Positions 7,364 to 40,263 of a stretch of 64,000 nt of DNA are shown here, in pieces; position 1 is the stretch's first letter; the number at the start of each line of letters is the position of its first letter. The DNA comes from Sacculina carcini. Taxonomy: Eukaryota; Arthropoda; Thecostraca; Sacculinidae. Both the position numbers and the translations under genes were made by a program. The DNA is taken from assembly GCA_916048095.2 (NCBI GenBank), contig OU696579.1:8937663-9001662 (forward strand), written 5' to 3'. Under the pieces are notes generated by a model. The model saw only the letters and a list, made by a program, of their open reading frames with translations, searched no databases and was not told the origin of the DNA.

Positions 7364-7705
7364 TCGGACTCCGTGGTGCAGTTGTAAGCACACCCGCCTC
7401 ACAAGCGGGAGGTCCGTGGTTCGAAACCCAGAGGAGCAGAATTTCATTGGGCGAATTCTACAATCCCACAGCCCCTGTCCACCCAGCAGTAAATGGTACC
7501 AGATATCAGTCATGTGTTGTGTCATGCATTCTGGGGAGACGGCCCTCTCTAATACGTCCTACGTCCTTGTGGCGTCATAGCGTGGAGAGGGTCGGTTCTG
7601 CGGTGGCAGCGAGCTGCACGGGACACACCTGTTGTGTTCATATGCTTCGGCTTCTTCCCGTGTAGCCGCTTTCACTTAGGCATTTAACCTTTTAACCTTT
7701 ATTAA
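7364..7705 (+). mobile_element. tRNA-derived SINE (copy 1, full length)
   Basis: The 5' end is a tRNA-like head. It has a polymerase III A box (GTGGTGCAGTTG) and an exact B-box consensus (GGTTCGAAACC), and the anticodon-loop position reads CAC. An unrelated body follows (CAGCAGTAAATGGTACC, then GTGGCGTCATAGCGTGGAG, then a CTTCTTCCCGTGTAG motif), ending in a tail of TTAACCTTT units. A second near-complete copy lies at 32312-32645 and 3' fragments at 20847-20985 and 51196-51250. This shows a dispersed family rather than a functional tRNA gene. Confidence 0.88.
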
Positions 7706-16469: not shown

Positions 16470-17058
16470 TAAGACCATATATTCCATATTATCTTATATG
16501 AGTTGGCTTTATAACTTGTAGTTGTTGCGGTTAGGTAGCCACAGAATTACACAAGTTAACAATGTGAGTACTTTGGACCGACTGTGTTTGACACAAGAGG
16601 ACGAAACCAACAGGTTACATGTACAGATAATCAGATTGGGCCGATCGACTTCTGTTAGAAAGACGTGTGCCCTTCCAAATAAACTAACTAACATACAGAC
16701 AAACATACATTGGTCAAACACACACACATGATCCAACAACACACGCAGTCACAGACAAACACGACACACAGACAGACAAACGAAAAAGCGTCCAGCTAGA
16801 GGTGTAATTCCACGTGGTGCTCCACATAGTTGGAGCCTTGTGTGTTCAACAGCTGTGCTCACTATTCAATGAAGAAATAGCATTTGAAATATTCGACATG
16901 TATCAAGTGCGGAATTTTTATTGCAAAGGGGACAATATCATTGTCTATGGATATTTGTGATCAACGTGCGGCAGTAAAACTCAGCTGATCAAGATAGTGA
17001 ATGTGCCATCATGAGTGTTAGAGAAAAATGTCATTATTTGTGTGAGTTCCATTTGAAT
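16470..17058. other. 5' flank of the receptor gene; no gene
   Basis: Nothing coding is supported. It contains CACACA-rich sequence around 16720-16770 and presumably the receptor promoter, though I see no diagnostic element. Confidence 0.4.
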
Positions 17059-17059
17059 T

Positions 17060-18163
17060 ACAACAACAACAATAACAACATGTATTTGATATAGCGCACT
17101 TTCGAGGGCAAAGGCGCGAGCAGGAGCAGGGTAATAAAGTGTAGACACAGAGCGGTATGGGGACAAAAATATGGAGCACAAATCGACAGAAAGTACATGG
17201 GTGCTAGCAAAACTGAATACATACAGACACACAGACACATGCACACGAACACATACACACGCACATACACATACACATGCATACACATATACATATATGA
17301 ATAGTGTAATGTAATAGATAATACAATGGAAATAGAGAAAATATATAATGGGAGTAGAGAAAAGAAAGCAAAGTGAAAATTAAAAATATAATAAAAAGCA
17401 TGGGATATATAAGAATAAAAATAAATACTAGATGGCCGTTGGCTAGCGAGTAGCTCTTCCGCCCTTGGACAGGTTATATTTTTAGTCCTGCTGGGTGTCT
17501 AGCCACCCTCCTCACTGCTGGGAACCAGAGGGGGAGCCGGTTTAGTCGCCGACCACTCGACTATGAGACTGGTTTTACTGGACTACACAGTACCAGTAGC
17601 AGGAACTCTCCTGACCAGACAATTCACCAGACCGAAGTGAGTCAACCAGCCAAACACAGTAATTCACAATGAGGAAAAAGAGTTTGAAGATAACGGAAAC
17701 AGATTACAGGGTAGGTTAGATCAAGCAGATTCAAGTAGGTGTTTGTGCAAGGCGACAGAGAAAGACTTGATAGACGTTTTTTCAAGGATGTATGAGGGAA
17801 GCGAGTTATATATACGAGGAGCATAAAATGTAAAAGATTTGGCCGACCAGGGAGATAAATTGATAGCGGGAGGACTAACTAAAGGCTTACGATGGCGACT
17901 ATCAGAGCGAACGCTGGGTATGAGAAGAGAACGAAGATACTGTAGCGGAGGCGTGTACGGTGACGACAAGCCTGTCACCAGATGGCGCTGGAATAGCGCA
18001 ATGAGTGTGTATATTGTTTTATTGCTTCTAGTCACTCATTTCTTGTCGTAATTGCGTATTGCTGTGATTTTCCGTGTTGCTCATCTATGTCATACATTCA
18101 GTACTGCCCTTTATCTTATCAGCGCCAATGTCTTCGTGTTATTGTTTGTATAACGTGTATTGT
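17060..18163 (-). mobile_element. L2/CR1-like LINE, 3' fragment (family B, copy 1)
   Basis: On the minus strand the end of a reverse-transcriptase ORF (about 104 codons, 17721-18035) reads SPWSAKSFTFYAPRIYNSLP and closes with HKHLLESA. It is homologous to the C terminus of the LINE at 18223-19885. A 3' UTR with TG-rich tracts follows and ends GTGCGCTATATCAAATACAT plus a (TTG)n-type tail at about 17060-17080. A GCGCTATAxAAAT-like terminus is typical of L2-clade LINEs. The copy is 5'-truncated. From 17202 onward it forms the left arm of a large inverted duplication. Confidence 0.8.
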
Positions 18164-18222
18164 CCATTTTAGTGGTTGTGGGCGCTAATTATCCTTTCAG
18201 TGTACAGACTAAAATGGACAAT

Positions 18223-19885
18223 ATTTTTTTTTATTTTTATTTTTTTTTTTTGTTATTTTTTTATTAACGTTTATTTGTATAGCGCACATTAAAACACACG
18301 CGCGAAAAGAGAAATCTTGGTGCAAAAATATAAACAAATATGTAAGACACGCCGCTTAGGGAAAACAAACATGCGGACAATACACACACCCACAAGCACA
18401 CACACTCACACAAACACACACACACACACACACACGCACACAAACATGCTCATGCACACACACCGCCAAATTGAAACATGGCAGTAAGAAAGAGCATAAA
18501 AAACAACAAGAAAACTTCTAGTAAATATATCACGCGAGACGGGTACGGTATGACAGCTCAGAGCGAAGCGTAAGGAGTAAGAGAGTGAGAGTCATGATCA
18601 AAAGATTTATCAAAGAGATGATTGCGCAGAGAAGAGGAAAACGATGATAAGGATGTGGAGGAGATAACATGGGAGGGAAGAGAGTTGTACAACCGTGGAG
18701 CATAGAAAGGGAAGGATTTACTAGACCAGGTAGATTCATTGAGGGCTCGTGGACAAGATAAAGGAAGAGGATGACGGGAAAGAAAGTTATTAGAGAGTGT
18801 AAGAAGCTGCGAGAGGTATGTAGGTTGCCGAGGGTCATGCAAAAGTTTATAAACAAGACAGCAAATTTTAAAGTGGATGCGAGGGATGATCGGAAGCCAT
18901 CGAAGATTGTAGAGATAGGGTGAGGTATGACGAAAGTGGGAAGGAGAAAACACGAAACGACAAGATTTATTAATGACATGTTGCAGGATTTTCAGAGAGG
19001 AGCGAGGTACATGGAAATATAAAGAATTGCAGTAGTTGATTCTTGAAAAGATGAAACAATGAATCAGTTTAATAGCTGAGGGACGGTCGAGAAAAGGGCG
19101 GATAGGATATAGCGAACGTAGAATGAGATGACAAGTGCGAGCAACAGCAGAAATATTTGCAGAAAAAGAAAGTGAGGAATCAAGAATGACTCCGAGATCG
19201 CGAACACTTTGAGATAGGGGTAAAGGGAGCAGCGGAGGTGTTAAGCGAGGAGGATGTAGAATGAAGAATTCTGATTTGGAAGTGTTAAGAAGGAGACTGC
19301 GAGAGGCACACCAGGAAGAAATATCAGAGATAATGTCTGATAAGAACGAAGCATGGGGGAAGGGAAGAGGAATAATTATTTGTATATCGTCTGCGTAGAC
19401 GTGGAACTGGACAGAATAGCGATGGAGAATAGGACATAGAGAAGACATGTACAGATTGAAGAGAAGCGGGGCTAGAATAGAACCTTGTGGCACACCGGAA
19501 AGTAGAGGAGTTTGCTTAGAAGTAGTGGAATTGAATTGCACCGAGTAGGAACGATCAGTGAGATAAGAATGTAGAAGAGAGAGCGCTGAAGAGGACACAC
19601 CAAGAAAGGAGAGATCTCTGATTAAAATTGAATGGTCAACTAAGTCAAAGGCTGCTGACAGATCAAGGAGGATAAGCAGAGCAGATTTACCGAATGAAAA
19701 ATGAGAAAAAACAGTAGTAGTAACGGAGGTTAGGACAGATTCAGTAGAGTGAGCAGACTTGAAACCCGATTGGAAGGGGTCAAGGGATTTGTTGATGAAT
19801 GGCGCAAGTTGAGAATACATAGCAGACTCGAGGAGTTTAGAGGGAAAGTTGAGTAGAGAAATAGGACGGTAACTGCTACATGCCA
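18223..19885 (-). mobile_element. L2/CR1-like LINE, 5'-truncated, reverse transcriptase ORF open (family A)
   Basis: A 442-codon minus-strand frame (18558-19886) covers much of a non-LTR reverse transcriptase. It has the fingers motif SYRPISLLN, the catalytic LSAAFDLVDH block, SGVPQGSILAPLLF and the YADD active site (FHVYADDIQI). The thumb and C-terminal region ends YNSLPSHV. The endonuclease domain and the start of the RT are missing. The 3' end shows GTGCGCTATACAAATAAACG followed by an A-rich tail (minus strand). The frame is open, so the insertion is young, but it is not autonomous. It sits exactly in the loop of the palindrome; CAATA occurs at both ends and could be the target duplication. 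Confidence 0.88.
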
Positions 19886-20844
19886 ATACACGTTATACAA
19901 ACAATAACACGAAGACATTGGCGCTGATAAGATAAAGGGCAGTACTGAATGTATGACATAGATGAGCAACACGGAAAATCACAGCAATACGCAATTACGA
20001 CAAGAAATGAGTGACTAGAAACAATAAAACAATATACACACTCATTGCGCTATTCCAGCGCCATCTGGTGACAGGCTTGTCGTCACCGTACACGCCTCCG
20101 CTACAGTATCTTCGTTCTCTTCTCATACCCAGCGTTGGCTCTGATAGTCGCCATCGTAAGCCTTTAGTTAGTCCTCCCGCTATCAATTTATCTCCCTGGT
20201 CGGCCAAATCTTTTACATTTTATGCTCCTCGTATATATAACTCGCTTCCCTCATACATCCTTGAAAAAACGTCTATCAAGTCTTTCTCTGTCGCCTTGCA
20301 CAAACACCTACTTGAATCTGCTTGATCTAACCTACCCTGTAATCTGTTTCCGTTATCTTCAAACTCTTTTTCCTCATTGTGAATTACTGTGTTTGGCTGG
20401 TTGACTCACTTCGGTCTGGTAAATTGTCTGGTCAGGAGAATTCCTGCTACTGGTACTGTATAGTCCAGTAAAACCAGTCTCATAGTCGAGTGGTCGGCGA
20501 CTAAACCGGCTCCCCCTCTGGTTCCCAGCAGTGAGGAGGGTGGCTAGACACCCAGCAGGACTAAAAATATAACCTGTCCAAGGGCGGAAGAGCTACTCGC
20601 TAGCCAACGGCCATCTAGTATTTATTTTTATTCTTATATATCCCATGCTTTTTATTATATTTTTAATTTTCACTTTGCTTTCTTTTCTCTACTCCCATTA
20701 TATATTTTCTCTATTTCCATTGTATTATCTATTACATTACACTATTCATATATGTATATGTGTATGCATGTGTATGTGTATGTGCGTGTGTATGTGTTCG
20801 TGTGCATGTGTTTGTGTGTCTGTATGTATTCAGTTTTGCTAGCA
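19886..20844 (+). mobile_element. L2/CR1-like LINE, 3' fragment (family B, copy 2)
   Basis: Plus-strand mirror of the copy at 17202-18163. The RT C-terminal frame is at 20011-20325 with the same SPWSAKSFTFYAPRIYNSLP stretch. The 3' UTR stops abruptly at TGCTAGCA and the GCGCTATAT terminus is missing. A 3' fragment of the tRNA-derived SINE follows at once, so the outer breakpoint of the duplication lies here. Confidence 0.82.
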
Positions 20845-20846
20845 GT

Positions 20847-20985
20847 TTTCCGTTCTTGTGGCGCCATAGCGTGGAGAGGGTCGGTTCTGCGGTGGCAGCG
20901 AGCTGCACGGGGCACACCTGTGTGTGTTCATAAGCTACGGCTTCTTCCCGTGTAGCAGCTATCACTTAGGACTATAACCTTTAAC
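20847..20985 (+). mobile_element. SINE 3' fragment
   Basis: It matches the 3' half of the SINE at 7364-7705: GTGGCGCCATAGCGTGGAG, CGGTGGCAGCGAGCTGCAC, CTTCTTCCCGTGTAGCAGC, and an AACCTTTAACC tail. The tRNA-like head is absent. Confidence 0.85.
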
Positions 20986-25113: not shown

Positions 25114-26407
25114 ATGAACGACACTTTGAAGGTCATTGTCAACGAACTCAACAAGAAACCCTTCGAGAAGAACTTTTCCGTAATCTCGTTTGATTCTCTC
25201 AATGGAGAGCAGCTGCTTCAGGTTGGTTTCAATTGTTAAAATGTCCAGCAAGATATTCTCAATTGGTGCGTCACGTGCTTGTTTGCTGGTCAACAACATA
25301 ATTGTTGTTTGAATTTGTTGTCTGCTTAGTGCAGTAACGCTACGTAACCAAGTGTCAGTATACTGCCATTTCATGTTGCTACATTTTATGTTGCAAAAGC
25401 GTGCTGGTCTGTGCTGCATTTTTCTATTTTATTCGTTATTTTTGTACTGTCATCTCGAGCTATTTGGCGTGATGCACTTGCATTGCTACGCTGCCGGGTT
25501 TCACTGTGTAGCAACTGAGTGACGTTCTGGCCGTGATTGGACAAGCAGCGGGCAGCGATGTTGGCAGCGAGCCAGCTGACGTCACTGTGGCCAGATTATC
25601 GGCGTTTCTGCACATGCTCAAATATCAGCCCACCTCTGACTTGTGAGCTGAATTTCACTCATTCTCTCTTGCGTTTTTATTTGTTCACTTTGAACTGGGA
25701 TGTGTGATGATACACGGACTTCAGTTAGTGCTTATAGTTCCGCGTTGTATCGCAGTTGAAGTTAATGGCGGGTGTTTAACTGAAGACAGTTATCGCAGCA
25801 ATGAGTCGATTTCTAACATGTCAGCCTACACACACATGATAAACACGAGGCTATACATGAGTTGTGTGTCTACTCGAGTTTGTTTGGTACTCACACGTCG
25901 ATTCATCGGCTACTTGTTCTACCTGGTGAATGTATATTTATTTCGCTTTTATTCTGTGAACCTTTCTTTGTGGCTCTGTCACGTCAGCATCCAATTTGCC
26001 CGTTTATAATGATGCGTGTGCTATAATTGGACACTCCGTAATAGGTTTTGCGCTGTTTTTAAATTAATACATAAGTTTTATGATGTGTGTGCGCATTTGT
26101 GTGCATGTGTGTATGCCCCTGTTTGTGTGTGTGTGTGTGTGTGTGTATGCCCCTGTTTGTGTGTGTGTGTGTATGTGTGTGTGTGCAGGAGCATGTTTCG
26201 TCAGGGTCTGGTAACGGGTGACAAGTCAGTTGTGTACCCCGTTCTTCACTGGTGCCTGCTGCGAATTCCCGAGCTGAGCAAGCGCGCCTATCTGGCCCGC
26301 TTTCTCGTCAAGCTTGATCTGCCGGCCGAGTTTTTGGCTGAGCAGGAAATGAGCGTCGTCTTCAGACAGGTGCTTTCTGCTGCACAGCACGCACCAGCTG
26401 CAGTCTA

Positions 26408-26447
<40 letters not shown>

Positions 26448-27094
26448 TGTGTGTGTGTGTGTGTGTGTGCTAACAATTCTGGACTCTCTTTCATGCTTAT
26501 AGCACGCGGTTTCTATTGTGAAATCAACAGTGGCACATGAATTAAGAGCTGCGTAAATGCCGGTATGGAGGCACAATGTGTATTTTTGCGTGATGAGTTG
26601 TCACCAGAGGATGAGCTTTCAGTATTATGACACCATGTAGTGGTGGCATGTGCAGAACTGCATTTGTCACGTCTGCTGTTCAATTGACAAGTTGAGGCAA
26701 TATGCCCGGCAACACATATTATGACTGTAAGCAAATTCTTGTCCGGTTCCAGAATATGTATTCAAAGACAGGCGGGCGTGGGACATCGCTGTCCCACGCC
26801 CGCCTACAAGACCACACCACTCGTAGACACGCCTCAAGACAGACTCTCCATTTCCCCTAGTTACAGTCACCAACAAAGTTCAGCACACACGCACACCAAC
26901 ACACACACAATCACACGCATACACATACACACACGTGCACATCATCTGCCTGTACAACCAGTGCTGCGCATATAGACACGTACGCATTCACAAACAAACA
27001 TATCTACCGCTCGCGCAAGGACCACAACCACACAAACACGCACACACTTTCACTCGCCCTAACATACAGACTTGCATACGCAAACATCATAGCC

Positions 27095-27158
<64 letters not shown>

Positions 27159-30100
27159 TAGCTCAGCAATATACCACAATGACATTTACAACTCCTCTTC
27201 AATGACGGCCATTTGACACTTACTAATTACCACCAAGATAATGTATCATATACATTTACATTTAGATATCGCTTTGTATTTTTTCATCCATTCTGCTTGA
27301 TTGATTGTGTTTATTTGTGTGTGTTTGTGTGTGTGTATTTGTGTTTATTTGTGTGTGTGTGTGTGTATTTGTGTGTTTATTTGTGTGTGTGTGTGTGTGT
27401 TTGTGTGTATTTGTGTGTGTATTTGTGTGTACTGCTGCAGTATGAGGACCTTATTGAGGAGTTCAAGAATGCTCACAAACAGCTGGAACTGCAGAAAAAC
27501 TCGGCCGTTCAGACGACGGAGCTGCGTCGAGACATCGCAGCCATGGAAGAGGAAAAAGAGGTGCTCTCCAAGAAGATCGCTCGGCTCAAAAACAAGGTAT
27601 TTTTGGCTGCTACGGTTGTATTATCGGGCAGATTGGATGAATGAGCCGGTGTTTTTCCTTCTACCAGTTGACTGTGAGCGAGTCGTGCTTGTGCGATGGT
27701 GCAGGCGGGACCGACGGACGGAGAACGACTGCGACTGGCACGGCGGCAGCGGGTCGAGACTCAGCGACGCGACCAACTGGCCTCTCAGCGGCGCGAGCAG
27801 CTGGTGGCACTGTCGCGAGCTGAGCAGCTGCTGCAACGACGTCGCCAGCTGTTGCACGAGGCACGTGCGGCCACCGGCAACACGAGCATGCAAGGTGCAC
27901 CATGTGACGCTGATTAATCATCCAATATATGGTCACTGGCTGACACAGTACTGTCTGTGTTGAAGGACTAGTGGCTCGTTGATGTGTGTGTTGAAGGACT
28001 AGTGACTCGGTGATGTGTGTGTTGAAGGACTAGTGGCTCGGTGATGTGTGTGTTGAAGGACTAGTGGCTCGGTGATGTGTATGTGTTGAAGGACTAGTGG
28101 CTCGGTGATGTGTGTGTGTGTTGAAGGACTAGTGGCTCGGTGATGTATGTGTTGAAGGACTAGTGACTCGGTGATGTATGTGTTGAAGGACTAGTGGCTC
28201 GGTGATGTATGTGTTGAAGGACTAGTGGCTCGGTGATGTGTGTGTGTGTTGAAGGACTAGTGGCTCGGTGATGTATGTGTTGAAGGACTAGTGACTCGGT
28301 GATGTATGTGTTGAAGGACTAGTGGCTCGGTGATGTATGTGTTGAAGGACTAGTGGCTCGGTGATGTGTGTATGTGTTGAAGGACTAGTGGCTCGGTGAT
28401 GTGTGTGTGTGTGTTGAAGGACTAGTGACTCGGTGATGTGTGTGTTGAAGGACTAGTGGCTCGGTGATGTATGTGTTGAAGGACTAGTGACTCGGTGATG
28501 TGTGTGTTGAAGGACTAGTGGCTCGGTGATGTGTGTGTGTTGAAGGACTAGTGGCTCGGTGATGTATGTGTTGAAGGACTAGTGGCTCGGTGATGTATGT
28601 GTTGAAGGACTAGTGGCTCGGTGATGTGTGTGTTGAAGGACTAGTGGCTCGGTGATGTGTGTATGTGTTGAAGGACTAGTGGCTCGGTGATGTGTGTATG
28701 TGTTGAAGGACTAGTGGCTCGGTGATGTGTGTGTGTGTTGAAGGACTAGTGACTCGGTGATGTATGTGTTGAAGGACTGGTGGCTCGGTGATGTGTGTGT
28801 TGAAGGACTAGTGGCTCGGTGATGTATGTGTTGAAGGACTAGTGACTCGGTGATGTGTGTGTGTGTTGAAGGACTAGTGACTCGGTGATGTATGTGTGTT
28901 GAAGGACTAGTGGCTCGGTGATGTGTGTATGTGTTGAAGGACTAGTGGCTCGGTGATGTGTGTGTGTGTTGAAGGACTAGTGGCTCGGTGATGTGTGTGT
29001 GTTGAAGGACTAGTGACTCGGTGATGTGTGTATGTGTGTTGAAGGACTAGTGGCTCGGTGATGTGTGTGTGTTGAAGGACTAGTGGCTCGGTGATGTGTG
29101 TGTGTTGAAGGACTAGTGGCTCGGTGATGTGTGTATGTGTTGAAGGACTAGTGGCTCGGTGATGTGTGTGTGTGTTGAAGGACTAGTGGCTCGGTGATGT
29201 GTGTATGTGTTGAAGGACTAGTGGCTCGGTGATGTATGTGTTGAAGGACTAGTGGCTCGGTGATGTATGTGTTGAAGGACTAGTGGCTCGGTGATGTATG
29301 TGTTGAAGGACTAGTGGATCGGTGATGTATGTGTTGAAGGACTAGTGGCTCGGTGATGTATGTGTTGAAGGACTAGTGACTCGGTGATGTATGTGTTGAA
29401 GGACTAGTGGCTCGGTGATGTGTGTGTGTTGAAGGACTAGTGGCTCGGTGATGTATGTGTTGAAGGACTAGTGGCTCGGTGATGTATGTGTTGAAGGACT
29501 AGTGGCTCGGTGATGTATGTGTTGAAGGACTAGTGGCTCGGTGATGTATGTGTTGAAGGACTAGTGACTCGGTGATGTGTGTGTGTGTTGAAGGACTAGT
29601 GACTCGGTGATGTATGTGTGTTGAAGGACTAGTGGCTCGGTGATGTGTGTATGTGTTGAAGGACTGGTGGCTCGGTGATGTGTGTATGTGTTGAAGGACT
29701 AGTGGCTCGGTGATGTGTGTGTGTGTGTTGAAGGACTAGTGGCTCGGTGATGTATGTGTTGAAGGACTGGTGGCTCGGTGATGTATGTGTTGAAGGACTA
29801 GTGGCTCGGTGATGTATGTGTTGAAGGACTAGTGACTCGGTGATGTGTGTGTGTGTTGAAGGACTAGTGACTCGGTGATGTATGTGTGTTGAAGGACTAG
29901 TGGCTCGGTGATGTGTGTATGTGTTGAAGGACTAGTGGCTCGGTGATGTGTGTGTGTGTTGAAGGACTAGTGGCTCGGTGATGTGTGTGTGTTGAAGGAC
30001 TAGTGACTCGGTGATGTGTGTATGTGTGTTGAAGGACTAGTGGCTCGGTGATGTGTGTGTGTTGAAGGACTAGTGGCTCGGTGATGTGTGTATGTGTTGA

Positions 30101-32837
30101 AGGACTAGTGGCTCGGTGATGTGTGTGTGTGTTGAAGGACTAGTGGCTCGGTGATGTGTTTGTTGAAGGACTAGTGGCTCGGTGATGTGTTTGTTGAAGG
30201 ACTAGTGGCTCGGTGATGTGTTTGTTGAAGGACTAGTGGCTCGGTGATGTGTGTGTGTTGAAGGACTAGTGGATCGGTGATGTGTATGTGTTGAAGGACT
30301 AGTGGCTCGGTGATGTATGTGTTGAAGGACTAGTGGCTCGGTGATGTATGTATGTGTTGAAGGACTAGTGGCTCGGTGATGTGTGTGTGTTGAAGGACTG
30401 GTGGCTCGGTGATGTGTGTGTTGAAGGACTGGTGGCTCGGTGATGTATGTGTTGAAGGACTAGTGGCTCGGTGATGTATGTATGTGTTGAAGGACTAGTG
30501 GCTCGGTGATGTGTGTGTGTATGTGTTGAAGGACTAGTGGCTCGGTGATGTGTGTGTTGAATGACTAGTGGCTCGGTGATGTATGTGTTGAAGGACTAGT
30601 GGCTCGGTGATGTATGTGTTGAAGGACTAGTGGCTCGGTGATGTGTGTGTGTTGAAGGACTGGTGGCTCGGTGATGTGTGTGTTGAAGGACTAGTGGCTC
30701 GGTGATGTGTGTTTTGAAGGACTAGTGGCTCGGTGATGTATGTGTTGAAGGACTAGTGGCTCGGTGATGTATGTGTTGAAGGACTAGTGGCTCGGTGATG
30801 TGTGTGTGTTGAAGGACTAGTGGCTCGGTGATGTATGTGTTGAAGGACTAGTGGCTCGGTGATGTATGTGTTGAAGGACTAGTGGCTCGGTGATGTATGT
30901 GTTGAAGGACTAGTGGCTCGGTGATGTGTGTGTGTTGAAGGACTAGTGGCTCGGTGATGTATGTGTTGAAGGACTAGTGGCTCGGTGATGTATGTGTTGA
31001 AGGACTAGTGACTCGGTGATGTATGTGTTGAAGGACTAGTGGCTCGGTGATGTGTGTGTGTTGAAGGACTAGTGGCTCGGTGATGTATGTGTTGAAGGAC
31101 TAGTGGCTCGGTGATGTATGTGTTGAAGGACTAGTGGCTCGGTGATGTATGTGTTGAAGGACTAGTGGCTCGGTGATGTGTGTATGTGTTGAAGGACTAG
31201 TGGCTCGGTGATGTGTGTGTTGAAGGACTGGTGGCTCGGTGATGTGTGTGTGTATGTGTTGAAGGACTAGTGGCTCGGTGATGTGTGTGTTGAAGGACTA
31301 GTGGCTCGGTGATGTGTGTGTTGAAGGACTGGTGGCTCGGTGATGTGTGTTTTGAAGGACTAGTGGCTCGGTGATGTGTGTGTTGAAGGACTAGTGACTC
31401 GGTGATGTATGTGTTGAAGGACTGGTGGCTCGGTGATGTATGTGTTGAAGGACTAGTGGCTCGGTGATGTGTGTGTGTTGAAGGACTAGTGGCTCGGTGA
31501 TGTGTGTGTGTTGAAGGACTGGTGACTCGGTGATGTGTGTATGTGTTGAAGGACTGGTGGCTCGGTGATGTGTGTGTGTTGAAGGACTGGTGGCTCGGTG
31601 ATGTGTGTATGTGTTGAAGGACTAGTGGCTCGGTGATGTGTGTATGTGTTGAAGGACTAGTGGCTCGGTGATGTGTGTTTTGAAGGACTGGTGGCTCGGT
31701 GATGTATGTGTTGAAGGACTAGTGGCTCGGTGATGTATGTGTTGAAGGACTGGTGGCTCGGTGATGTATGTGTTGAAGGACTAGTGGCTCGGTGATGTGT
31801 GTGTATGTGTTGAAGGACTAGTGGCTCGGTGATGTGTGTGTGTGTTGAAGGACTAGTGGCTCGGTGATGTGTGTGTTGAAGGACTAGTGGCTCGGTGATG
31901 TATGTGTTGAAGGACTGGTGGCTCGGTGATGTATGTGTTGAAGGACTAGTGGCTCGGTGATGTGTGTATGTGTTGAAGGACTAGTGGCTCGGTGATGTGT
32001 GTGTGTATGTGTTGAAGGACTGGTGGCTCGGTGATGTATGTGTTGAAGGACTAGTGGATCGGTGATGTGTGTGTGTATGTGTTGAAGGACTGGTGGCTCG
32101 GTGTCGCGAGGATGTGGAAGTGAGCAGACTGCTAGCCTGTGACAAAATGCCCCAGCAACTGAACAATGTTCGCTGTCAGTGTGACGTCATGCAGAAAGTT
32201 CTCAATGTGCCAGCTCTGTCCTCACACGAACTGCTGCAAATCAAAAACAAGGTGTGTCATTCTCTCATTCTCTCTCATTCTCTCTCATTCTCTCATTCGT
32301 CCTTCTTTTGATGGACTCGTGGTGTAGTTGTTAGCACAGCCGCCTCATAAGCGGGAGGTCCGTGGTTCGAATCCCAGCGGAGCAGAATTTCATTGGGCGA
32401 ATTCTATAATCCAACAGCCCCTGTCCACCCAGCAGTAAATGGTACCAGATATCAGTCATGTGTTGTGTCATGCATTCTGGGGAGGTGGCCCTCTCTAATA
32501 CGTCTTCTGTCTTTGTGGCGCCATAGTGTAGAGAGGGTCGGTTCTGCGGTGGCAGCGAGCTGCACGGGACACAACTGTGTGTGTTCATAAGCTTCGGCTT
32601 CTTCCCGTGTAGCAGCTGCCACTTGATACAATTGGCCTTTTAACATTCCTGCTTTCACAGTCATAATTGAACGTCCTGTATTTCTGCTTGTTTTGTTCTA
32701 GTATTTATAAGTGATGTTGTCTTTATCCTTTACCGTGCCCATTTATTTTGGTCATATTGCTTCTGTTCTTTGTCGGGCATTTTCAATTTATTTTGTTGTT
32801 TTTATTTCGTGATGCTATTCCAACTATTACAGCATCA

Positions 32838-32884
<47 letters not shown>

Positions 32885-33450
32885 TGTGTGTGTGTATGTG
32901 TGTGTGTGTGTGTGTATGTGTGTGAGGTCAGGTATCTTCGCTGCGAGACCAGGTGAACTCGTTGCAGCAGCGCAGAGATGTCATGTACGGCTCGTGCTCG
33001 GACGCTGGTGCTTCATCAAGCTCGGCTGCTGCTGCGCTGGCGGCTGATCAGCTGATCATGTTCAGACGACAGGCTCGTGCACTGGCCGACAACAAGACTG
33101 CGGCGGCTTCCTCGCTCACCGCACTGCAACAACAACTGCACCAACTGCAACCCGCTCTCTCCGTGCGTGCCAGCGTGCCACTATGTGTGTGAACTGCTGT
33201 ACGTGCGTGTGTGTGTGTGTGTCAGTGTGTGTGAGTGCCAGTGTGTGCGGGTGTGTGTCACTTTGTGTCTGTGGCAGTGTTTGTATGTGTGTTTGTGTGT
33301 GTGTCAGTATGCTTGTGTGCGTGCCATTGTATTTGTGTGAGTGTCAGTGTGTTTGTGCGTCAGTGTCAGTGTGTTCGTGCATCAGTGTCAGTGTGTGAGT
33401 GTCAGTGTCAGTGTCAGTGTGTGTGTGTGTGTGTTAGTGTGTGTCAGTAT

Positions 33451-33486
<36 letters not shown>

Positions 33487-36400
33487 GTGTCAGTGTGAGT
33501 GTGTGAGTGTCAGTGTCAGTGTGTGTGTGTGTTAGTGTCAGTATGTTAGTGTCAGTGTTTGTGTGTCAGTGTGTGTGTGTTAGTGTGTCAGTGTCAGTGT
33601 GTGTGTTAGTGTGTCAGTATCAGTGTGTGTGTGTGTGTGTGTGTGTTAGTGTGTCAGTGTCAGTGTGTGTGTGTCAGTATGTCAGTGTCAGTGTGTGTGT
33701 GTGTGTGCTGGTTTTTCAGGAGCGTCGTGATATTGTGCAGTATCCACACGGCGACGATAACACTGCCGATATTGATGATGTCAGCGGTGAGGAATTTCAG
33801 CGCTATGTGCAGCAACTGCGCGATAAATCACTCGTCTATAAAAATCGCCGTCAGCGAGTGGCAGCTCTGCAGTCGCAACTGGCAACTCTGACTGACAAGC
33901 AGCGTGTTGTCACTCAGCAGCTCAATGAGTCGCAACAATGCCCGGTGTGTGTTGTGTTTGTGTTTGTGTTGTGCTTGTGTTGTGTTTGTGTTGTGCTTGT
34001 GTTTGTGTTGTGCTTGTGTTTGTGTTGTGTTTGTGTTGTGTTGTGTTTGTGTTGTGTTTGTGTGTGGGCAGTGTGCAGTTTGACTTGCTCACTGCGTTGA
34101 GAAGGACTCATCTAGTGAGAATATGGCTGGTTTTCTGCCAATTATGACATTGCTATTGGGATCTAGCTGTTAATCTACACGCTACATTTTAACATGCGAA
34201 CATTAACGTGACTTCAATGGCTGATATAATCATGATAATATGGTTGCTCAATATTTTCAATTTCTTCCTGTTTGTTTTTTATTTTATATTTGTTTTTTGT
34301 GTTCTTGTATCTCTTGCTGTTGGTATTTGTGTCTCATATTGTATTTATGCCTGAAATCGTTGCATTTTCAAGCACTTTTATTATTTGATGCCCAACTACT
34401 ATATTGCACATTTGTTTGGTGCTTGAGCTTATCACTGTTTTGTTTCTCTACTGGCCCAGGCTGTTTTAATGTATGGGACACTCGTAGAACGATGTGCGTT
34501 CATGTGTTGTCATGTGTACCAGCTGCACTGGTCAAATATATATTGTTGTTGCGCTGAGCAGGACTGGTCCGTGTCGCAGGCGGGCTCATCGACCTCCACT
34601 GGCCCGACCGATTGGCCTGCATTGTGTGTTGAGCTCAACGAACGCGCCAATCTGTGCAAAACTCGACTCTCTCCGCTCATCAAAGGTGAAACATCAGCAT
34701 GGGCTTGTTTGTGGCTTAGTTGTAACGGCGGAGCGATGTGTACATACTGGTGTAGCTAGTGTATTTGAGTTTGAGTGATTGCAGAGTGTGTGTGAGGTGC
34801 GTACCTGTGTGTGGATGACTTAATTGCGCATGTGCTCTATTGCGGCGAGCATTGTGCAATATTGCATGTGTCGAGATTGTGCAATATAGCAAGTGTCAAG
34901 ATTGTGCAATATTGCAAGTGTCAAGATTGTGCAATATTGCAAGTGTCAAGATTGTGCAATGTTGCAAGTGAGTGTATTCGTGCTTTGTCCTCTGGGTTCG
35001 TTGAGGGAGTAGAATTGGGAGCGTGGTTGCAAGTGGTGTGATCTTCTAGGCGCTCGTGGGACACAGTTGTCCCTCACGCGCCGGTCTTTTACTACACATT
35101 GCGGAACCGGACGGGAATGGTTTTGCAATGTTGCAGTCAAGTCATTATGCACTGGGCGATTTTCAAGAGCAATGGTTGAGTTGATTCTAGTAGGAGCGGT
35201 TTGTGTGTACTTGTCGGTTATATGCCTGACTATGGCTGTTTCATTGATGTTACAGAGAGTAGTTGCTTGATAGTTAATGTATGACGTGTGTTGAGTGGTG
35301 TACCAACACTACACCACTCGTCATTGTGTATGATGTGTGTTGAGTGGTGTACCAACACTACACCACTTGTCACTGTTTATGATGTGTGTTGAGTGGTGTA
35401 CCAACACTACACCACTTGTCACTGTGTATGATGTGTGTTGAGTGGTGTACCAACACTACACCACTTGTCACTGTGTATGACGTGTGTTGAGTGGTGTACC
35501 AACACTACACCACTCGTCACTGTGTATGATGTGTGTTGAGTGGTGTACCAACACTACACCACTTGTCACTGTGTATGATGTGTGTTGAGTGGTGTACCAA
35601 CACTACACCACTCGTCACTGTGTATGATGTGTGTTGAGTGGTGTACCAACACTACACCACTCGTCACTGTGTATGATGTGTGTTGAGTGGTGTACCAACA
35701 CTACACCACTTGTCACTGTGTATGACGTGTGTTGAGTGGTGTACCGACACTACACCACTTGTCACTGTGTATGATGTGTGTTGAGTGGTGTACCGACACT
35801 ACACCACTTGTCACTGTGTATGATGTGTGTTGAGTGGTGTACCAACACTACACCACTCGTCACTGTGTATGATGGCGTAGACCAGTGGTTATTATACCTT
35901 TTTCTCACTGATTCCCCACTTCTTAATGAGCCATCTCTTCATTTTCCACACAACAGCGCTGATAAATTCAATAAATTCAGTTGTTACATCAAAGTAAATG
36001 TCAAGAGGTTATTGGAAACAAAAATATACGAAGTTTGATTGATAAAACACACATAGTTGTCCTGTTCTGTCCGACCTTTATCTTCTCACTTGACAACTCT
36101 TCCATTCCCCACACAGGTTAAGAACCACTGGTTTAGATATTGAATAATTAAAATAGCGATCAGTATTAACCGTGTCATCATCAGCATCCTCGATGATATT
36201 AGTACACTAGGGCTATTATATTGATTCTTCATTCATGCATTTTGTCTTGAATTACGAGAAATATATCGCGTCTGAGTAATTGTTCTGCTTGTGGACAAAT
36301 TCATAAGCGCTGCGGTCTTATGGTGAATTGGTCATTGTTACACCTGCCTACTGCATGTTTATATTGCTCAGTGCGTTTCAAAATGGAAATGTTCCCCTGC

Positions 36401-36966
36401 AAGTTCTGCACAAACCACATGCGAAATAATGTAATTATATTCTCAATGATTTATTTTGCTTTCAGAGTAGTTTTATATCACTGGTTTGTGTATGTGTTTG
36501 TATGTTTGTGTGCAGAGTTGCGTCTCGTGCGTCCGCAGTATCAGCAATTGAGCAGTGAGCACGCGCAGGCCAGTTCAGCTCGAGACTCGCTGGCCGCCGG
36601 ACTGCAAGCCAACACTGCCACACTGCACCACGTATTTCACTCACTCACTCACACTGACACACACACAGAGACGCACATACACACATATATTACTTGTTAC
36701 TTGGTTCTGGTGTGACGAGGCAGTGAGTTTACACGCAGCCACGCCGCATCCAAACTGCAATGCAATTTTTCAACATTGTTGCAGCTTCAATTTCTGCTCT
36801 GAGATCTGTTTTATGCGCGCCAAAGTTGTTCATAGTGTGTGTGTTAAAGCAAACACATGTTGTTGTTGTTGTTGAAATGTTCTCATTATTTGATGCCACC
36901 TTGTGTTTACTTGCACCCTCGATCACTGCTTGAACACGCACTAGGAGACTGCGGTCAATGTTTGTC

Positions 36967-36997
<31 letters not shown>

Positions 36998-39173
36998 GTG
37001 TGTGTGTGGGTGTGTGTTGTACAGGAAGTGAGCGCTGTGTGGCGTCAAACACAGTCGCACGCATCACGAGTGCACGTGCTGGCTATCACGCGCCAACTGC
37101 TGCTCTGTCAGCGTGTGCAGTTGGGACAAACTGCGCCGGCAGATGGCGCCAGCGCTGCAGGATCATTCTCACTGCAACAACAACTACAGGTGAGTTAGCT
37201 GCCATGTCTTCACGTCTCCACATCACAGCATCAGATGTGAATTTTGTCACGTCTCCACATCACAGCATCAGATTTGAATTTTGTGACAGCCCTGTCCTGG
37301 CCGCTCTCAGCTGGCGTATCTCTAATGCACATATACTTCTACACTATCTCTAATGCACACATACTTCTACACTATCTCTAATGCACACATACTTCTACAC
37401 TATCTCTAATTCACACATACTTCTACACTATCTCTAATGCACACATACTTCTACACTATCTCTAATGTCTTCTACACTATCTCTAATGCACATATACTTC
37501 TACACTATCTCTAATTCACACATACTTCTACACTATCTCTAATGCACACATACTTCTACACTATCTCTAATGCACATATACTTCTACACTATCTCTAATG
37601 CACATATACTTCTACACTATCTCTAATTCACACATACTTCTACACTATCTCTAATGCACACATACTTCTACACTATCTCTAATGCACATATACTTTTACA
37701 CTATCTCTAATGCACACATACTTTTACACTATCTCTAATGCACATATACTTCTACACTATCTCTAATGCACATATACTTCTACACTATCTCTAATGCACA
37801 TATACTTCTACACTATCTCTAATGCACATATACTTCTACACTATCTCTAATGCACATATACTTCTACACTATCTCTAATTCACACATACTTCTACACTAT
37901 CTCTAATGCACACATACTTCTACACTATCTCTAATGCACACATACTTCTACACTATCTCTAATGCACACATACTTCTACACTATCTCTAATGCACACATA
38001 CTTCTACACTATCTCTAATTCACACATACTTCTACACTATCTCTAATGCACATATACTTCTACACTATCTCTAATGCACACATACTTCTACACTATCTCT
38101 AATGCACATATACTTCTACACTATCTCTAATGTCTGCTACACTATCTCTAATGCACACATACTTCTACACTATCTCTAATGCACATATACTTCTACACTA
38201 TCTCTAATGCACATATACTTCTACACTATCTCTAATGCACACATACTTCTACACTATCTCTAATGCACATATACTTCTACACTATCTCTAATGTCTGCTA
38301 CACTATCTCTAATGCACACATACTTCTACACTATCTCTAATGCACATATACTTCTACACTATCTCTAATGCACACATACTTCTACACTATCTCTAATTCA
38401 CACATACTTCTACACTATCTCTAATGCACACATACTTCTACACTATCTCTAATGCACACATACTTCTACACTATCTCTAATGCACACATACTTCTACGCT
38501 ATCTCTAATATCTTCTACACTATCTCTAATGCACACATACTTCTACACTATCTCTAATGCACACATGTGTATATGTGGCTGTCTTTGTGTGTCTGTGCAT
38601 TGTGTGTGTTCACATGTATGTATGTGTGTGTTCAAATGTATGTATGTGTGTGTGGTATTTGTAGAAGTTGTTGTCTGTTGCTGACGCACGCGCCAAGCAG
38701 CTGCGAGCTGAGCAGAAACAGCTGACAGACAGCTCAGCCGACTCGGCTCATCAGCTGAACATGTGGTCTTCACTGTTGCGGTAACTGTCGTCCTCACTGT
38801 GTGTGTGTGTGTGTGTCAGTGAATTTCGCTATTTTATTGGCTAGTAGAGCGGTTTTATACGCTGTGTCATTCAGGCTTCTCAAACAGGCACATTGTCAGC
38901 GCTCAACTGCACAGCCAAGATGCACAAACAAACTCCAACACGGCAGATAAGTTATTGACAATGAGAAACGTTTCAATTGAAATCGTCTTTGTTCATTCAG
39001 CTGAACACAATGACCTATTGCTTTGTTGTCACTCTCTCTTCTCCCACACTCTATCCTCTCGCTGCAATGACTTCCATTGTTTCTGGCATTCATGTGTGAA
39101 GGTGCTTGCTTGTGCGTTTGGGTGTCTGTGTGTCTTTTTGTGTCTAGCTGGATATGTGTTTGCATGCTGTTTG

Positions 39174-39245
<72 letters not shown>

Positions 39246-39353
39246 GTGGATAGTTTGATGACGGTCAAGGCGCAGTACATTGCTACGGCCGGCGTCTCTC
39301 ACAATGGAGGCGTGCTGCTGCGCGGGGACACTGGAGAACGACTTGAACTGTGA
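25114..39353 (+). CDS. IFT81: Intraflagellar transport protein 81 (IFT81), complete, 13 exons
   Basis: IFT81 pairs with IFT74 in the IFT-B core; its N-terminal calponin-homology fold binds tubulin cargo and the rest is coiled coil. Exons: 25114-25221, 25512-25642, 26189-26369, 27441-27596, 27705-27894, 32088-32251, 32932-33162, 33720-33944, 34562-34685, 36516-36631, 37025-37189, 38665-38780, 39254-39353. All junctions are GT-AG and phases agree. The sum is 2007 nt, 668 aa plus stop; human IFT81 is 676 aa. Diagnostic blocks: [106 protein letters not shown] at the C terminus. Most acceptors follow GT-repeat tracts. Exon 5's start (AGPTDGE) and exon 7's start (VSSLRD) were chosen by phase. Confidence 0.95.
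26408..26469. repeat. GT microsatellite in IFT81 intron 3
   Basis: A nearly pure GT run 39 nt downstream of the exon 3 donor. Confidence 0.9.
26771..26804. repeat. Perfect 15-bp-stem GC hairpin (hairpin family copy 2)
   Basis: GGCGGGCGTGGGACA and its exact reverse complement flank a 4-nt loop (TCGC). The downstream TACAAGACCACACCACTCG resembles the sequence next to the hairpins at 24.6 and 49.2 kb. It lies in IFT81 intron 3. Confidence 0.8.
27097..27155. repeat. CA microsatellite in IFT81 intron 3
   Basis: A CA run of nearly 60 bp on the plus strand in the same intron as a GT run at 26.4 kb. The two could pair in the pre-mRNA across about 0.6 kb. Confidence 0.9.
27955..32087 (+). repeat. 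About 31-bp minisatellite (roughly 130 copies) filling IFT81 intron 5
   Basis: The consensus unit TTGAAGGACTAGTGGCTCGG plus TGATGTATGTG repeats for 4.1 kb. Length varies through the TG/TATG spacer, and there is an A/G variant at ACTAGTGG/ACTGGTGG and a GGCTC/GACTC variant. The last unit runs into exon 6: GTGTTGAAG/GACTGGTGGCTCGGTG is the real acceptor and first 16 exonic bases. Each unit therefore repeats the 3' splice junction. Only about 60 bp of the intron lies outside the array, next to exon 5. Confidence 0.95.
32312..32645 (+). mobile_element. tRNA-derived SINE (copy 2) in IFT81 intron 6
   Basis: Same family as 7364-7705, here with an A box GTGGTGTAGTTG, an exact B box GGTTCGAATCC and CAT at the anticodon position. 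The body and tail match copy 1 closely. It is inserted after a TCTCATTC repeat tract (about 32262-32298). Confidence 0.88.
33190..33710. repeat. GTGTCA/GT-rich tract filling IFT81 intron 7
   Basis: From just after the exon 7 donor to the exon 8 acceptor the intron is GTGTGT mixed with GTGTCAGT units. A short TTTTTCAG pyrimidine tract remains right at the acceptor. Confidence 0.9.
34854..34972. repeat. 25-bp tandem repeat, 5 copies
   Basis: GTGCAATATTGCAAGTGTCA plus AGATT repeats about five times in IFT81 intron 9. GCAATATTGC within each unit is a perfect palindrome. Confidence 0.9.
35049..35083. repeat. GC hairpin family (copy 3, imperfect)
   Basis: GGCGCTCGTGGGACA and TGTCCCTCACGCGCC form an imperfect hairpin matching those at 24.65, 26.77 and 49.23 kb. 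Confidence 0.65.
35282..35871. repeat. 49-bp minisatellite of hairpin units, 12 copies, IFT81 intron 9
   Basis: Each unit contains GAGTGGTGT, a 9-nt loop ACCAACACT, and ACACCACTC, giving a perfect 9-bp stem. In several copies ACACCACTT makes the lowest pair G-U on RNA. About twelve units follow in direct order and end at an hAT MITE. Confidence 0.92.
35883..36130. mobile_element. hAT-type MITE (248 bp) in IFT81 intron 9
   Basis: It begins CAGTGGTTATTATACC and ends GGTTAAGAACCACTG. The interior (ATTCCCCACTTCTT, AATAAATTCAGTTGTTACAT, CATAGTTGTCCTGTTCTGTC) is nearly the same as at 61844-62085. The flanks GCGTAGAC and GTTTAGAT suggest a decayed 8-bp target duplication. Confidence 0.88.
37316..38568. 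repeat. 28-bp minisatellite, about 44 copies, IFT81 intron 11
   Basis: The unit TATCTCTAATGCACACATAC plus TTCTACAC repeats for 1.25 kb. Variants are CATATA/CACATA, AATTC/AATGC and short units ending TCTTCTACAC or TCTGCTACAC. It fills most of intron 11; a TG-rich tract then leads to the exon 12 acceptor. Confidence 0.95.
39178..39244. repeat. Long GT microsatellite at the IFT81 exon 13 acceptor
   Basis: An almost pure GT run of about 66 bp ends 9 nt before the TAG of the last acceptor, where a pyrimidine tract would normally lie. Confidence 0.95.
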
Positions 39354-40263
39354 CCTCGTGTCACTAATAACACCAGTGACCTCGTGTCACTAGTAACACC
39401 AGTGACCTCGTGTCACTAATATCACCAGTGACCTCGTGTCACTAATATCACCAGTGACCTCGTGTCACTAATAACACCAGTGACCTCGTGTCACTAATAA
39501 CACCAGTGACCTCGTGTCACTAATATCACCAGTGACCTCGTGTCACTAATATCACCAGTGACCTCGTGTCACTAATAACACCAGTGACCTCATGTCACTA
39601 ATATCACCAGTGACCTCGTGTCACTAGTAACACCAGTGACCTCGTGTCACTAATAACACCAGTGACCTCGTGTCACTAATAACACCAGTGACCTCATGTC
39701 ACTAATATCACCAGTGACCTCGTGTCACTAATAACACCAGTGACCTCATGTCACTAATATCACCAGTGACCTCGTGTCACTAGTAACACCAGTGACCTCG
39801 TGTCACTAATAACACCAGTGACCTCGTGTCACTAATAACACCAGTGACCTCATGTCACTAATATCACCAGTGACCTCGTGTCACTAATAACACCAGTGAC
39901 CTCATGTCACTAATATCACCAGTGACCTCGTGTCACTAATAACACCAGTGACCTCGTGTCACTAATAACACCAGTGACCTCATGTCACTAATATCACCAG
40001 TGACCTCGTGTCACTAGTAACACCAGTGACCTCGTGTCACTAATAACACCAGTGACCTCGTGTCACTAATAACACCAGTGACCTCATGTCACTAATATCA
40101 CCAGTGACCTCGTGTCACTAATATCACCAGTGACCTCGTGTCACTAATAACACCAGTGACCTCGTGTCACTAATAACACCAGTGACCTCGTGTCACTAAT
40201 ATCACCAGTGACCTCATGTCACTAATATCACCAGTGACCTCGTGTCACTAATATCACCAGTGC
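39351..40263 (+). repeat. 26-bp minisatellite, 35 copies, starting at the IFT81 stop codon
   Basis: The unit TGACCTCGTGTCACTAATAA plus CACCAG repeats 35 times. The TGA of the first unit is the IFT81 stop, so the array occupies the start of the 3' UTR. Variants are ATC/AAC, CTAGT/CTAAT and CATG/CGTG, alternating in runs. Confidence 0.95.

Follow-up and report, generated by a model that had tools for sequence, protein, structure and literature searches.

Tandem near-copies of the exon 6 splice junction in intron 5 of the IFT81 gene of Sacculina carcini

Intron 5 of the IFT81 gene of Sacculina carcini carries a minisatellite (27952..32103) made of 127 units of 31-39 bp, the final unit being the genuine junction with exon 6 and the 126 others near-copies of it, which we call decoys. 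The array was analysed within a window of 64,000 nucleotides, i.e., the whole stretch of DNA under study; all coordinates are those of the window unless another contig is named, and the features of the gene and of the array lie on the + strand. In our view, the array is most likely a passenger that has expanded through tandem duplication. The fuller reading that we favour, and hold to be reasonably probable, is that of a mirage-type minisatellite grown by duplication, in which the last site would be chosen through its UG tract together with exon definition.

The IFT81 Gene and the Exon 5/6 Joint

Thirteen exons joined between 25114 and 39353 give an open frame of 668 codons with a terminal stop. 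The first-pass annotation had named this gene IFT81, with which our protein comparisons agree: the product contains the Pfam IFT81 CH domain (E 7.4e-42) and matches two solved-IFT81 sequences, 8bd7_F (E 1.9e-39, residues 6-645) and 6ian_C (E 2.4e-28, residues 3-322). All 13 genome matches of the IFT81 protein (E 0.001 or better; assembly of 264 Mb in 43 contigs) fall at one locus; a pseudogene was ruled out on the unbroken frame and this single locus.

In the unbroken-frame gene model, exon 5 (27705..27894) ends in phase 1 at the donor AAG/GTGCAC, and exon 6 (32088..32251, 164 nt), placed by frame and homology, is followed at 32252 by the donor AAG/GTGTGT. The start of exon 6 at 32088, which had already been proposed from a family alignment, is well supported by homology, since the 13 residues at the exon 5/6 joint align without a gap with SAGKLLETLNEDV of 8bd7_F; in 6ian_C, IVRRLRDE stands opposite LVARCRED, with a two-residue gap shortly upstream of the joint. 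The acceptor AG (32086..32087) belongs to the sole AAG among the 12 IFT81 acceptors.

Anatomy and History of the Array

TRF delimits the array at 27952-32103 with 126.9 copies, and counting the units by a regular expression on the conserved 22-base core gives 127, i.e., 126 decoys and the genuine junction at 32088, with acceptors from 27966 to 32088. The existence of a large decoy array had been correctly recognized from the sequence, although the number then given, about 130 decoys, was slightly too high, and the feature had been drawn to 32251, which is the end of exon 6 (32088-32251), whereas the array itself ends at 32103. The periods of the units are 31 (68 cases), 35 (28), 33 (21), 37 (5), and 39 (4), always odd. 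In each unit, TTGAAG/GACTRGTGRCTCGGTG is preceded by a UG-rich linker of 9-17 bases, other variants being rare; the exon part corresponds to nt 1-16 of exon 6, and the units stop exactly at position +16 of this exon. The unit is thus, as the first-pass annotation proposed, the genuine acceptor together with 16 bases of exon. A 24-base unit pattern has 119 exact copies in the 264-Mb assembly and 119 in the window; exact unit copies are thus restricted to the IFT81 locus, and the same equality rules out a dispersed repeat that landed by chance at exon 6.

Intron 5 measures 4193 nt. Its 5' part (27895..27951) is unique and lies outside the TRF array, and the first unit, the core of which includes a CTCGTTG absent from all other units, offers the first decoy acceptor AG at 27964..27965, the use of which would leave an intron of 71 nt. 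Intron 5 may once have had these 71 bases, not far from the 108 bases of intron 4.

In a boundary test, we took the 24 bases at 25 IFT81 boundaries (12 donors, 12 acceptors, and the stop codon) and searched the surrounding 6 kb for near-copies, defined as matches at 20/24 positions or more. The exon 6 acceptor, with 126 near-copies, is the only boundary that has any; no array was found under this definition at any of the other 24 boundaries, and the count for the exon 5 donor context is 0. As a control, 372 random window positions off the array were treated likewise: 52 have at least one near-copy and 23 have 30 or more, with a maximum of 178 at a position inside a TG run. High counts are common at these control positions because other arrays and TG runs lie near. 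A high copy count is ordinary for the region; the unusual feature is the identity of the 24 bases repeated here, namely a splice junction.

The duplication of multi-unit blocks is evident from exact repeats within the array, which measure 306, 229, and 172 bp and lie at offsets of 990, 1632, and 252, respectively. The variants of the unit are not evenly spread along the array: an exon-like CTGG form, present in 16 of the 126 decoys, lies toward the exon, at a mean index of 92 with the decoys numbered 0-125 (p 0.0006 by shuffling), and a GTGACTC form, present in 18, lies toward the opposite end (mean index 44; p 0.016), both p values being optimistic because neighbouring units are related by descent.

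Reading Frames Resulting from Decoy Use

The AAG/G of the junction is kept by 125 of the 126 decoys, the single exception reading TTGAAT; such retention implies either that the array is young or that the decoys do little harm. Joined to exon 5, every decoy (126/126) reads Gly-Leu-Val-(Ala/Thr/Asp)-Arg and then a stop, with 105 cases of GLVAR*, 18 of GLVTR*, and 3 of GLVDR*, which sum to 126; as the AG-less decoy is included in that total, 104 or more of the 105 GLVAR* decoys retain the AG. The immediate stop announced by the first-pass annotation is therefore general, arriving after five residues in all 126 decoys; its reading Gly-Leu-Val-Ala-Arg, by contrast, covers the GLVAR class alone.

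We extended the frame test to all 242 AGs between the beginning of intron 5 and about 32140. As many as 239 of these lead to a stop at 257-265 residues, and the full frame is obtained from only three, namely 32088 (668 residues), 32121 (657 residues), and 32136 (652 residues); none of the tested AGs of intron 5 upstream of 32088 gives it. A stop would also come at 262 residues if intron 5 were retained and at 293 residues if exon 6 were skipped.

Acceptor Scores and Local Sequence

Acceptors were scored with a matrix built from the 11 other IFT81 acceptors, which should be taken as a rough guide. The true site at 32088 scores 5.3 and ranks third among the 127 unit sites, the median of which is 0.9; decoys 28420 and 29734 outscore it (8.1 vs. 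5.3), and 9 of the 236 other intron 5 AGs score as high as the true site or higher. Among the downstream AGs, those that are in frame score low (-5.2 for 32121 and -10.5 for 32136), and the one at 32128, at 7.8, is above 32088 but out of frame. We dropped the idea that the true acceptor is weaker than the 11 others of the gene, as these had been scored with a matrix built from themselves; leave-one-out scores of the 12 IFT81 acceptors range from 1.5 to 13.2, which puts 5.3 in mid-range, and the true acceptor is neither weak nor strong.

How many decoys are identical to the true site depends on the interval considered: 70 of the 126 from -14 to +3, 4 from -20 to +3, 1 from -25 to +16, and 0 from -30 to +16. 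The most similar one, with its acceptor at 32018 (AG at 32016..32017), has 1 mismatch in the 46 positions from -30 to +16, and splicing to it would insert 70 nt together with a stop. The linker before the true site is 17 bases long, the longest class, which it has in common with 4 of the 126 linkers before decoys. The local sequence favours the true site over most decoys, without singling it out. We found no support in 31850-32140 for an RNA structure hiding the decoys (z +1.4; folding equally good or better in 181 of 200 shuffles).

At the 12 IFT81 acceptors (25512-39254), the final 30 bases of the intron are 63-97% U+G and 43-60% pyrimidine, with 73% U+G or more at 10 of the 12; a UG tract before an acceptor is therefore ordinary in this gene. 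As for branch points, the unique part of intron 5 contains three YTNAY matches, with the branch A at 27913, 27917, and 27943, the last one being a CTGAC located 22 nt before the AG of the first decoy. The array itself holds 1 YTNAY match and 126 TGAT, which leaves the later copies with no obvious branch points. By simple scanning from the CTGAC at 27943, the first decoy would be chosen; it is presumably passed over despite this prediction, which would point to exon definition.

Origin of the Array and Choice of the Last Copy

The favoured history would begin with the tandem duplication of a stretch of about 31 bp, reaching from about 16 bases of intron to 16 bases of exon 6, after which block duplications would have raised the array to 126 extra copies. 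The coding sequence has stayed untouched because the copies lie upstream of the sole junction that still leads into exon 6. The last copy would be picked partly via its UG tract, which is among the longest, and its score exceeds that of 124 of the 126 decoys; as the only copy with the exon 6 body and the 32252 donor behind it, it would also benefit from exon definition, which would have to override the two better-scoring decoys and the near-identical 32018. Any leakage to decoys would mainly lower the amount of mRNA, through nonsense-mediated decay, since decoys, when used, give a stop within six codons. Several observations speak against this account: decoy 32018, only 70 nt upstream, is near enough for definition with the same donor, 28420 and 29734 outscore the true site, the CTGAC at 27943 would favour the first decoy under simple scanning, and the array has a single YTNAY match.

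The same data can be read in a functional sense. The decoys could compete with the true site in the manner of a rheostat, the number of units setting the fraction of productive IFT81 mRNA and nonsense-mediated decay removing the rest; the AG kept in 125 of 126 decoys, the stop at 257-265 residues after every one of them, and the decoys that equal or beat the score of the true site would all suit such competition, which we nevertheless judge quite unlikely given the median decoy score of 0.9 vs. 5.3 at the true site and given that amphioxus minisatellites of this type are said to leave splicing undisturbed (PMC3087553, PMC3902484). It is just as doubtful that the length of the array works as a heritable and rapidly mutating dial, in which added acceptors shift splicing to stop-containing transcripts and IFT81 dosage varies; were this true, dosage would track unit number between individuals or somatic cells. 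Rather than competing, the decoys could be hidden by a UG-binding protein of the TDP-43/CELF type coating the array, from which exon 6 would escape via its own enhancers. Every unit does have a UG-rich linker; the true site, however, stands behind a similar tract, and UG tracts precede most other IFT81 acceptors, which makes this silencing unlikely.

Two further possibilities were considered. If exon 6 really started downstream, at 32121, the whole array would be intronic and out of in-frame competition. This start keeps the frame (657 residues), but it scores -5.2 against 5.3 for 32088 and loses 11 residues that are aligned gaplessly in 8bd7_F, and we consider it highly improbable. The array could also be an assembly error, its true length being much shorter or longer; exact repeats of up to 306 bp invite misassembly, and one amphioxus mirage has been reported as aberrantly assembled in a draft genome (PMC3087553). 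An error of this kind is nonetheless very unlikely here, with the array lying within a contig of 9.66 Mb and unit variants showing no recurrence at a fixed period.

Comparison with Known Boundary Repeats

Minisatellites that duplicate intron/exon boundaries are described in amphioxus under the name of "mirages", which was coined in cephalochordates; they occur in the globin genes BflGb6 and BflGb9 and in Adh3 (PMC3087553), and further ones in TnC and PGBD5 (PMC3902484). The BflGb6 mirage is described as joining the 3' end of an intron to the 5' part of the exon that follows, many of its copies having AG signals, and as occurring in two haplotypes with 3 or 6 units, each of 150-160 bp; for Adh3, the units are said to measure 10-72 bp (PMC3087553). 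RT-PCR is said to suggest regular splicing (PMC3087553), and the Adh and TnC mirages reportedly yield no aberrant mRNAs (PMC3902484). The layout of the IFT81 array is like that of BflGb6, with 127 units of 31-39 bp instead of 3 or 6 much longer ones. Its tandem unit spans the intron/exon boundary (126 near-copies of the junction), its copies carry splice signals (AAG/G in 125 of 126 decoys), and its interior is homogenized (exact blocks of up to 306 bp) between divergent edges, the first unit having its unique CTCGTTG core and the last one being the exon. The array thus shows the structural features of mirages that we tested, and the intact gene is consistent with regular splicing.

Human genes in segmental duplications are likewise reported to contain variable internal tandem repeats at exon-intron boundaries, with an average unit of 30 bp and an average copy number of 4, and often to give novel introns or alternative transcripts (PMC2812944). 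The human and IFT81 repeats both have a unit length of about 30 bp and both sit at exon-intron boundaries; with about 4 copies, the former often create novel introns, whereas the IFT81 array enlarges an existing one. Intron gain by tandem genomic duplication is reported as another process that copies splice-site sequence (PMC4974935, PMC3443670). In the case of intron 5, however, the duplicated unit does not account for both ends of the intron: the donor and the initial 57 nt are unique, and there is no sign that the array created the intron. Intron gain via the repeat was ruled out on these grounds, the donor context having no near-copies and the first 57 nt lying outside the array.

In view of these amphioxus and human cases (PMC3087553, PMC3902484, PMC2812944), the first-pass annotation overstated the matter in presenting the question as unusual, as if without precedent. 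The array is not new in kind; it is extreme in scale, and one of its decoys agrees with the true site at every position from -25 to +16. Among the matches listed in a search of open-licence PubMed Central papers, we found no mirage on this scale, which does not exclude one.

Other Repeats in the Window and the Assembly

IFT81 contains further minisatellites. One, with 35 copies of 26 bp (39350-40262), begins at the stop codon (39351-39353) and occupies the start of the presumed 3' UTR, its unit overlapping the coding sequence by the stop region only; two others, of 12 copies of 49 bp in intron 9 (35278-35874) and 46 copies of 28 bp in intron 11 (37317-38566), lie off the splice junctions. In a survey of 17 stretches of 10 kb, TRF found arrays at 7 places (200 bp or more, period of 12 or more, 4 or more copies, simple types included). 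At L026:873-1490, on the minus strand, a 24-bp tandem array within an open frame of 205 codons would encode an 8-residue repeat of the NKDHFFKN type.

Elsewhere in the window, two tRNA-like Rfam matches (7367-7438, 33.9 bits; 32318-32379, 31.4 bits) have flanks that look alike by eye, which suggests a tRNA-derived SINE. A reverse-transcriptase frame (18558-19892, minus) lies within 17058-20955 between frames that are nearly alike and of opposite orientation, 17721-18035 minus with 20011-20325 plus and 17058-17498 minus with 20548-20955 plus; this arrangement points to an inverted repeat around the retroelement. Beyond the window, about 180 kb hold eight full-length matches to the kinesin motor on the plus strand (G000:C11:1881371-2062534), apparently a tandem cluster with a motor domain free of introns, each being one open frame.

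Significance

The IFT81 locus amounts to a natural competition experiment, in which a single donor is confronted with 126 near-copies of its acceptor, including one that is identical over 41 nt, and in which the true acceptor is marked mainly by its position and by the sequence downstream of it. Junction counts at the array would gauge the share of exon and donor, as opposed to that of the acceptor itself, in the choice of a 3' splice site, and would show whether mirage-type repeats stay neutral at such a copy number, as the IFT81 array may well be. With 125 retained acceptors before one genuine site, the locus offers an unusually clean test of splice-site choice.
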